Positions 6,887-9,751 of a DNA stretch of 43,722 bases are shown here, piece by piece. The notes beneath the pieces are model-generated. The model searched no databases. It was given only the letters and a program-made list of their open reading frames with translations, and was not told the origin of the DNA. The stretch is from Gammaproteobacteria bacterium (GTDB lineage Bacteria > Pseudomonadota > Gammaproteobacteria > Enterobacterales > Alteromonadaceae), in the NCBI GenBank assembly GCA_013373245.1, contig JABXID010000079.1, forward strand, positions 1 to 43,722, given 5' to 3'. The position numbers were made by a program, and so were the translations under genes. The first letter of the stretch is position 1; the number at the start of each line of letters is the position of its first letter.

Positions 6887-7759
6887 GTGATTGTAAATTT
6901 GGTGTGTATCTTGTTCAAACTCCTCATCGCTCTAATTATTGTATTTTCCAGTTCGTCTATAAACGCGAAAACGTTAATGTTTATTCGCGATGACGTGTTA
7001 GAAAATTATTACAACTTTCTAAAAGGCAGAGACGTTCTCAGCATAAGAAATTTTAGCGGTGAGTTTATCCGTCGTGATGTAGTCGATATGATTTTATTGC
7101 AACAGGCATTAAAAATTGGTGGTTTTAACATGGAATTTGACTACGCCCCGGGCCGACTGAATTTTCGCAATACCCGCATGTTAGAAGAAGGAAAACTGCT
7201 GTTAAGCTTTGATTCATATTGGTTGCAAGACGCGAAACTTCTATCAGAAGACTTGTACATATCCGAGCCTGTGATCAGAAAAGGCGAATACCACGCAGCC
7301 ATTTATGCAAGCCCCAAACACCCGACTATTTTTAACGTTTCTACTATCGAAGACTTAAGAAAGCATACAGCGGTTTCTACGCCAAAATGGAAAACCGACT
7401 GGGCAACATTGCAAGCCCTCAACCTAAAAGAACTAATTCACGAAGACGAATGGGTCAGCCAAGCAAAAATGGTCTCATTAAGATTAGTTGATTTCATTAT
7501 GATGCCGTTTACATCGGAAGGCAGTAACACATACCATTTAGAATCCATAAAGCTGCAACACATTCCTAATACAGCTTTGTTATTAAACGACAGTCGTCAT
7601 TTTGTTGTCAGTAAAAAACACCCTTTGGGCAACGAAGCCTTTACTTCGCTAAATAAAGGCCTGACTGTTTTAAGAAAAGAAAATCGTATTACATCCGCTT
7701 ATAAAGAAGCCGGCTTTTTAATCGATACGACAAACATTAAAGTCCTAAATGCCCAATAA
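6887..7759 (+). CDS. Periplasmic SBP-like protein (transporter substrate-binding domain family)
   Basis: A 290-residue exported protein. A hydrophobic N-terminus (LFKLLIALIIVFSSSSINA) is followed by a mature part resembling family-3 solute-binding proteins: LQQALKIGGFNMEFDYA, EGKLLLSFDSYW, ISEPVIRKGEYHAAIYA, TIEDLRKHTAV and a C-terminal LNKGLTVLRKENRITSAYKEAG. No ABC permease or ATPase gene is adjacent, so it may be a ligand sensor or an accessory protein rather than a transport component. The start is unsure: GTG at 6887 lacks a clear RBS, and TTG codons shortly downstream are alternatives that keep the signal peptide. It follows the TonB-dependent receptor by 83 bp and ends just before a strong terminator, so the two may be co-transcribed. 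The ligand is unknown. Confidence 0.7.
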   Translation: MIVNLVCILFKLLIALIIVFSSSSINAKTLMFIRDDVLENYYNFLKGRDVLSIRNFSGEFIRRDVVDMILLQQALKIGGFNMEFDYAPGRLNFRNTRMLEEGKLLLSFDSYWLQDAKLLSEDLYISEPVIRKGEYHAAIYASPKHPTIFNVSTIEDLRKHTAVSTPKWKTDWATLQALNLKELIHEDEWVSQAKMVSLRLVDFIMMPFTSEGSNTYHLESIKLQHIPNTALLLNDSRHFVVSKKHPLGNEAFTSLNKGLTVLRKENRITSAYKEAGFLIDTTNIKVLNAQ

Positions 7760-7763
7760 AAAA

Positions 7764-7785
7764 GGCGCATATACATGCGCCTTTA
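7764..7785. terminator. Rho-independent terminator, possibly bidirectional
   Basis: A perfect 7-bp stem GGCGCAT/ATGCGCC with loop ATAC (7764-7781) is preceded by A residues and followed by TTTATAG. It lies 4 bp after the stop of the SBP-like gene. The A-rich 5' flank means it could also work on the other strand. Confidence 0.85.
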
Positions 7786-7853
7786 TAGTTTATAAAAATA
7801 GACTGCACTGCATTAAACTTCATTTATTACATTGTGGTTTTAATTCAAGCAAC

Positions 7854-7959
7854 GCCACGAAGAATTTTCAGCCCTAGAGTCAAATGGGATTGTGCGAAAT
7901 AGTTAGGGCTAAGACGAGGCTGTCAAAGATTTTTACCTCGGGAGTTTGCTCCAGTAAAT
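7854..7959. repeat. 106-bp repeat, copy 1
   Basis: This aligns without gaps to 8007-8112 at about 85% identity by eye. It begins GCCACGAAGAATTTTCAGCC and ends GGGAGTTTGCTCCAGTAAAT. It contains internal inverted repeats (AGCCCT/AGGGCT and CGAGG/CCTCG). It lies between the terminator at 7764 and the 3' end of guaA. Confidence 0.85.
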
Positions 7960-8006
7960 AACCTATATTCACCCGTCTTTCTACAAAGTAGTTTTTCTTA
8001 AACAAG

Positions 8007-8112
8007 GCACCGAGGAATTTTCAGCCCTCTACTCAAATGCGATTATGCTAAATAGTTGGCGCTAAGACGAAGCCGTCAAATATTTTTACCTCGGGAGTTT
8101 GCTCCAGCAAAT
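8007..8112. repeat. 106-bp repeat, copy 2
   Basis: Second direct copy, starting 153 bp after the start of copy 1 and of the same length. The most conserved part is the 3' section TTTTTACCTCGGGAGTTTGC. The rest of the 7760-8167 gap shows no supportable gene. One frame of both copies reads like protein (FSAL...DEAVKxFYLGSLLQ) but is broken by stops. Confidence 0.85.
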
Positions 8113-8127
8113 GACTGAGGTAAAAAT
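8082..8127. repeat. Perfect 11-bp inverted repeat at the end of repeat copy 2
   Basis: ATTTTTACCTC (8082-8092) pairs with GAGGTAAAAAT (8117-8127) across a 24-nt loop. The loop itself contains GGAG/CTCC and the palindrome-like TTTGCTCCAGCAAA. It lies 40 bp beyond the guaA stop codon, so on the minus strand it would be in the guaA 3' untranslated region. It could act as a transcription-end or RNA-stability hairpin; this is inference. Confidence 0.6.
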
Positions 8128-8167
8128 TGCAGACAATGACGTATTAGCTCCAAATATGACGCAGAAT

Positions 8168-9751
8168 CTATTCCCACTCAATCGTAGCCGGCGGCTTACC
8201 ACTAATATCGTAAACCACACGAGAAATACCATTGATTTCATTGATGATACGGTTAGAAACCTTGCCTAGGAAATCGTAAGGTAAATGTGCCCAATGTGCA
8301 GTCATAAAGTCGATAGTTTCTACTGCTCTTAAGCTCACCACCCAGTCGTACTTGCGTCCATCACCCATTACACCAACTGAACGAACTGGTAAGAATACCG
8401 TAAACGCTTGCGATACTTTGTTATAAAGGTCTGCCGCATGTAACTCTTCGATGAAGATAGCGTCTGCACGACGAAGTAAATCAGCGTATTCCTTTTTCAC
8501 TTCACCTAAGATACGAACACCTAAACCCGGTCCTGGGAACGGATGGCGGTATAACATGTCATACGGTAAACCGAGCTCTAAACCAATCTTACGCACTTCG
8601 TCTTTAAACAACTCACGCAATGGCTCAACTAAACCAAGCTCCATGTCTTCTGGTAAACCACCTACATTATGGTGCGATTTAATCACGTGTGCTTTGCCCG
8701 TTTTAGACGCCGCTGATTCGATGACATCAGGATAGATAGTACCTTGAGCTAACCATTTTGCGTTTTTAAGTTTGCTCGCTTCCTCGTCGAATACTTCTAC
8801 GAATACATTACCAATGATCTTACGTTTTTTCTCAGGATCATTCTCGCCAGCTAAGCGGTCTAAGAAACGTTGTTCTGCGTTAACATGAACAATATTCAAA
8901 CCAAAGTGGTCGCCAAACATATCCATTACTTGCTGGCCTTCGTTCAAACGCAATAAACCGTTATCTACGAAAACACAAGTGAGTTTGTCACCAATCGCAC
9001 GGTGTAATAACATAGCTACAACTGATGAATCAACGCCACCAGATAAGCCAAGAACCACTTCGTCATCGCCAACTTGTGCCTTCATTTTTTCCACGGCATC
9101 TTCAATGATTGACGCAGATGTCCAAAGCTTTTCACACGCACAAATATTACAAACGAAGTTTTCTAAAATACGCAAACCTTGTTTAGTGTGCGTAACTTCA
9201 GGATGAAACTGAACGCCATAAAAGCGCTTTTCTTCGTTTGACATAACCGCGTATGGGCAAGAGTCAGTTTTTGCAACTGTAGTAAAGTCGGTTGGGATGG
9301 CTTTTACTTTATCGCCATGACTCATCCAAACGTCTAACAATGCGTTTCCGCCAGCAGCGATTGAATCTTCAATACCTTCTAATAACGCAGATTCAGAAAT
9401 AACTTCTACTTGCGCATAACCAAATTCACGTTCATTTGATACTTCAACCGCACCGCCTAACTGCTGTGACATGGTTTGCATACCGTAACAAATACCAAGT
9501 ACTGGAATACCAGCGTTAAATACATACTCAGGCGCACGAGGTGAATCATGCTCAGTAACAGACTCAGGTCCGCCCGCTAAGATAATACCGTTCGGATTAA
9601 ATTCTTTGATCTGCTCTTCGGTAACGTCCCACGCCCAAAGTTCACAATAAACACCAATTTCACGAATACGACGTGCAATTAATTGAGTGTACTGAGAACC
9701 AAAATCTAAAATTAAAATTTTGTGCTGGTGAATGTCTTGGTTTAGTGACAT
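8168..9751 (-). CDS. guaA: GMP synthase (glutamine-hydrolysing)
   Basis: GuaA aminates XMP to GMP with glutamine and ATP, the last step to GMP. At 527 residues it has the usual two-domain form. The N-terminal class I glutamine amidotransferase spans about residues 1-200, with the nucleophilic Cys in GICYGMQ and the His-Glu pair in [10 protein letters not shown]. The ATP pyrophosphatase domain follows, with the PP-loop [12 protein letters not shown]. The dimerisation domain ends in the conserved TIEWE. An AAGG lies seven bases before the ATG. The gene follows guaB in the same direction, but 297 bp separate them, and that gap contains a hairpin and a dispersed repeat. Nothing is odd in the protein. 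Confidence 0.98.

Follow-up and report, generated by a model that had tools for sequence, protein, structure and literature searches.

What is the repeated sequence beside guaA, and how did it come to lie there? The window, the whole 43,722-nt stretch of DNA that was analysed, carries guaA (GMP synthase) on the minus strand at 8168-9751 (NCBIfam PRK00074.1, 839.9 bits), with its TAG stop codon at 8170-8168. Downstream of the gene, two ungapped copies of a repeat occupy 7847-7962 and 8000-8115. A preliminary description had put this ungapped pair at 106 bp and about 85% identity, which was a fair account; as measured here, the copies are 116 nt long and 84% identical, with a spacing of 153. The protein-like reading frame reported in the repeats is likewise present (GACGAGGCTGTCAAAGATTTTTACCTCGGGAGTTTGCTCCAG). 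Such frames have already been described in ERIC (RU-1) (PMC2759123), and a coding ancestor for the repeat was considered and dropped as unneeded for explaining it. The 11-bp hairpin reported beyond copy 2 exists and forms only the inner stem of a palindrome that extends from 8042 to 8167. The extent given for the repeats also required revision: copy 2 runs on to 8167, where it meets the guaA stop codon, and copy 1 is truncated.

The palindrome at 8042-8167 was compared with a covariance model (R1) built from 26 aligned ERIC loci, none of them from this genome, after 296 genomes of the order had been sampled for ERIC. Within the window and the ndk locus (L002) described below, R1 matches exactly two places: 8042-8167 on the minus strand (55.9 bits; E, 2e-11) and L002 1500-1625, also on the minus strand (57.7 bits). 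Both matches span model positions 1-127 of 127. A repeat that had been assigned to an unknown family, and to which no name could be put, is thus recognised end to end by a model made from ERIC only. Reciprocally, a second model (R2), built from stop-type elements with the guaA and ndk copies among them, recovers classical ERICs in other families with E values down to about 1e-17. The E. coli ERIC consensus, confirmed in 5,393 of 5,426 E. coli genomes, gives a nearly gap-free alignment with the minus strand of both copies and is identical at 74 of 125 positions of copy 2 (59%) and 70 of 125 positions of the ndk copy (56%). These alignment scores were equalled by 0 of 2000 dinucleotide or palindrome-preserving shuffles, and the opposite orientation showed no similarity to the consensus.

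The element is an imperfect palindrome over its whole length of 126 nt, compared with 127 nt for ERIC, and each full copy folds from one end to the other as a single hairpin. As RNA, the window plus strand of copy 2 folds at -49.4 kcal/mol (z, -6.8), and the ndk copy, in the strand given, folds with a z of -7.1; 0 of 200 shuffles were as good in either case. The other strands gave z values of -4.7 (guaA copy) and -5.1 (ndk copy). The TATACCC and GGGTATA terminal repeats of ERIC are absent from both full copies, which end in ATTCTGC...GCATAAT (guaA) and ATTCTGC/GCAGAAA (ndk). Target-site duplications were sought and none was found at either full copy. Because of the non-TATACCC ends and the lack of a visible TA duplication, the elements are filed as an ERIC-type variant and not as classical ERIC.

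No match to the element was returned by Rfam for the window stretch and 16 loci (a weak STnc40 match in the window covers the terminator, not the element), by an exact search for the core in GTDB contigs, or by a distant-mode search of a plasmid collection. A repeat private to this genome, first suggested by short chance BLAST matches in 60 relatives, was overturned by the profile approach. In sequence and architecture, the window element almost certainly belongs to the ERIC family.

Copy 1 consists of the right half of the element plus 42 bp of flank, at an offset of 153. Its truncated ERIC (7889-7962, minus strand; about model positions 53-127) lines up with copy 2 at that offset; R1 alone misses it, and folding of copy 1 yields no hairpin. 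A non-ERIC flank (8000-8041, minus strand) is duplicated together with the truncated copy, and the repeat alignment places the second copy of this flank at 7847-7888 (minus strand). The 42-nt flank is common to copies 1 and 2 and absent behind the ndk copy, and for this reason copy 1 is best read as a decayed local partial duplication and not as a second insertion. The linker between the repeats (7963-7999, minus strand) is without clear homology to what follows the second flank. Its tail scored 6.5 against a shuffled mean of 4.3, and 228 of 2000 shuffles scored as high; a linker forming part of a 153-bp tandem unit was not supported by this shuffle comparison. We regard the identity of the guaA feature as an ERIC-type element, together with the anatomy given here, as very likely.

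A tandem array of the sort seen behind gcvH may have decayed to give the guaA locus of the window. At that gene, head-to-tail pairs with 0-1 nt spacing were observed at five loci (L071:2148-2396, L080:1375-1623, L081:1501-1747, L249:1501-1751, and L253:1376-1625), and the first member of the pair sits at the stop codon.

The full-length element starts at the base right after the guaA TAG, in the sense orientation of guaA and upstream of its terminator. The terminator-like hairpin (GGCGCATGTATATGCGCC plus a T run; 7761-7784, minus strand) lies ~385 nt downstream of the guaA stop here, beyond the element and the truncated copy. The guaA stop has the same position in seven sister species, where an equivalent hairpin follows close behind it, within some tens of bases. 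The same hairpin is shared by the end of a 290-aa ORF (6887-7759, plus strand) that is convergent with guaA and has no NCBIfam match, and it gave sub-threshold Rfam matches to Salmonella sRNA models.

The repeat is not confined to the guaA locus. A search of the same genome yielded a third copy (G000:C144:37921-38019) between ndk and rlmN (ndk was assigned by NCBIfam, rlmN named from translation only). The similarity of copy 2 to this copy extends past the end noted earlier, up to the guaA stop codon. The ndk copy is a second full ERIC-type element (L002:1500-1625) that abuts the ndk stop, ahead of a terminator-like hairpin and rlmN; the ndk stop codon is conserved in 8 of 8 genomes, and the element lies between it and the hairpin. 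The guaA and ndk copies are each other's nearest relatives (0.72 identity). They have the same orientation and both touch a stop codon, bordered on the left by the stop codon's TA at ndk and by TAG at guaA, and on the right by CG and GT; the divergent 3′ untranslated regions (3′ UTRs) preclude an exact empty site. The genome thus holds two full copies, in the 3′ flanks of guaA and ndk, and one truncated copy, all intergenic, dispersed, and low in number, as counted by sequence searches in a draft of 285 contigs that is 89% complete and could hold more. Searches of seven sister genomes with R1 and R2 found no element, and the guaA and ndk sites were both without one; both insertions are therefore particular to this lineage among the genomes sampled. 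Judged by guaA, at about 87% protein identity, the host is closest among named organisms to species of Thalassotalea and Colwellia.

Taken alone, the two window copies would be no more than a remote ERIC of ordinary kind; it is the stop-codon class behind them that makes them interesting. R1 found ERIC relatives in at least 36 of 150 genomes and at least 20 of 52 genera of the family, and R2 found them in at least 116 of 299 sampled genomes and at least 28 of 52 genera, all of these counts being lower bounds, with few candidates scored per genome. A start at a stop codon was already frequent among the diverged-end elements of the first sample. In a test set of 71 elements outside the R2 building set, scored with models free of flanking sequence, 53 start no more than 6 nt from the stop of a sense ORF lying upstream and none (0/71) ends at an antisense stop; a stop-adjacent start is expected by chance at about 1% of non-ORF positions. 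Most of the other test elements lie about 125 nt or more beyond, as the second element of a head-to-tail array. When the sets were pooled, 101 of 145 elements with non-TAT ends stood at stop codons versus 8 of 76 with TAT ends (Fisher P, 4e-18), a value that is indicative only, since the counts include many orthologues from related species and P values therefore overstate independence. ERIC relatives thus fall into two kinds: those ending in TATACCC are located anywhere relative to stop codons, and those with other ends start mostly at most 6 nt from a sense stop codon, behind dozens of genes. The stop-codon rule was also seen at loci in other families of the order.

The stops at the 101 stop-type elements are TAA in 85 cases, TAG in 16, and TGA in none, compared with 9.4% TGA in neighbouring ORFs. 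These elements carry 71 distinct left heptamers, and yet the left and right ends of one element are complementary: 6.19 of 7 positions pair, versus 3.74 with partners shuffled. Host genes identified by NCBIfam include gcvT, gcvH, hisG, rpsI, mreB, prfC, and a narK-like gene, and several recur across genera (gcvT, gcvH, prfC, hisG, and rpsI). We consider it an even call that the ERIC relatives include a distinct, widespread class at the TAA and TAG stops of housekeeping genes, in sense orientation, with arms that are locus specific yet complementary, so that the element would either target stop codons or be rebuilt there by a hairpin-templated process, and that its members persist at the same genes in different genera (gcvH, prfC, hisG, rpsI, and others).

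At prfC (release factor 3), a stop-codon element is found in many species (L076, L256, L261, L273, L276, L283, L284, L321, and L322, of which L321 belongs to another family), and its terminal arms vary between species but remain complementary. At L235:1501-2132, behind a regulator-like gene, three ERICs that score highly and are almost identical follow one another every 252 nt; their ends are CTTAGCC...GGCTAAG.

The preliminary description had called the repeat structured and suggested a mobile ancestor, and both suggestions agree with an ERIC-type miniature element that has covarying base pairs. The stems of the two full copies differ by compensating changes. Across 33 stop-type elements, 87.7% of cells pair (64.6% when shuffled), changes on both sides occur in 26 of the 27 pairs, and the covariation score is 0.591, compared with 0.184 for shuffled alignments and at most 0.139 for slid structures. 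The palindrome is preserved by compensatory change. In the sense orientation, G-U pairs are rare; A-C mismatches, which read as G-U in the complementary strand, outnumber them several-fold in all ERIC classes (A-C, 40, 40, and 65; G-U, 3, 7, and 16, respectively), classical ERICs included. Part of the A-C excess sits at a few shared positions, and the excess persists without them. The antisense strand folds better in 26 of 26, 30 of 32, and 57 of 65 elements. The A-C excess and the better antisense fold suggest that conservation of the palindrome may act on the bottom strand or on the DNA and not just on an mRNA hairpin, and wobble that favours the strand opposite the mRNA argues against selection on the mRNA hairpin alone.

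These observations can be arranged into a candidate history. A non-autonomous palindrome of ~127 bp would have inserted in this lineage in sense orientation, leaving the guaA stop intact and probably using the TA of the stop codon. Insertion at that TA fits the use of TAA and TAG and the lack of TGA, yet no duplication is visible. Partial duplication of the right half, with 42 bp of flank, would have come after insertion. The position between stop codon and terminator implies that the element is present in the guaA transcript, where it would be expected to form the start of the 3′ UTR, ahead of the original terminator. There it would lengthen the 3′ UTR and present a long hairpin whose base would be covered by terminating ribosomes; such coverage could alter RNase access and hence the 3′-end stability of guaA mRNA. 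ERICs in Yersinia have been proposed to destabilise the upstream transcript in an orientation-dependent manner via a ribosome-exposed RNase E site (summarised in PMC2229807 and PMC10969869). By analogy, control of the mRNA 3′ end by the guaA copy, coupled to terminating ribosomes, is a tentative proposal, somewhat less likely than not.

The strand asymmetry bears on an account in which the palindrome is maintained as DNA, by hairpin-primed synthesis, template switching, or a single-stranded bottom-strand transposition intermediate, and has no role in mRNA. Three observations suit this account: compensated pairs are exchanged in double steps, with hardly any G-U on the sense strand; A-C is more frequent than G-U both in classical and in stop-type elements; and most elements fold better as the antisense strand. 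However, the account gives no reason why stop-type elements should be fixed in sense orientation and at stop codons, and we hold it possible but doubtful. The recurrence of the same genes and the strong covariation would suit a resident structured 3′ UTR RNA that is no longer mobile, is inherited vertically at housekeeping genes for mRNA processing, and shares only a remote common ancestor with ERIC. When each element's closest counterpart was sought outside its own genus, it belonged to the same gene in 49 of 77 cases (9% expected), a likeness that speaks for inheritance. Against this, there is no element at guaA or ndk in 7 of 7 sister species. Moreover, the ERIC-type element that sits precisely at the guaA stop codon of another genus (G516; locus L262) is only 58% identical to the window's and no closer to it than random (0.58); this, with the mutual nearness of this genome's own two copies (72%), speaks for separate arrivals here. 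A resident RNA of this kind is accordingly judged unlikely.

Two other readings fare far worse against the ERIC-type assignment. Long imperfect hairpins, and a GTTAGGC-like motif in the ndk copy, recall an integron attC site, REP/BIME, or another known structured element, but there is no Rfam match to the element and no integron setting, and the ERIC model fits the whole length; attC and REP/BIME were dropped, and this reading is highly improbable. A local duplication with no wider family, the case that the preliminary description had named as its refutation, is more improbable still. Copy 1 really is a local duplication, non-ERIC flank included, but the full copy at ndk, the ERIC model match, and the many relatives in the family refute a purely local reading for copy 2.

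ERIC, known since 1990-91, is widely used in typing. A stop-locked ERIC class with self-complementary, locus-specific ends and no TGA would offer a testable handle on how the element moves, through its choice of target, and on what it may do, through a link between translation termination and mRNA decay. Neither such a class nor ERICs near Colwellia were found described in the papers covered here, and priority is uncertain.

Among known systems, Correia/NEMIS, RUP, YPAL, and other bacterial miniature inverted-repeat elements (MITEs), likened here by description only, are also small non-autonomous palindromes able to act in transcripts; they differ in target and ends. The ERICs at gene 3′ ends in Yersinia are closer: as summarised in the literature, they lie behind a gene and are cotranscribed with it (here predicted from position), orientation matters, and a ribosome-exposed RNase E site is proposed (PMC2229807, PMC10969869). 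The elements described here differ from those in forming a sequence-defined class that is fixed within about 5 nt of TAA or TAG and has locus-specific ends. The closest likeness is to ERIC itself (IRU, RU-1), with which the window element shares length, whole-element palindrome, internal motifs, intergenic site, and reciprocal full-length model match, and from which it differs in its ends (ATTCTGC...GCATAAT versus TATACCC...GGGTATA) and in an identity of 56-59%. Whereas the ERIC hosts known from the literature are Enterobacteriaceae and Vibrionaceae (PMC10969869, PMC2267715), the window host is near Thalassotalea and Colwellia, which widens the ERIC host range to these marine relatives.
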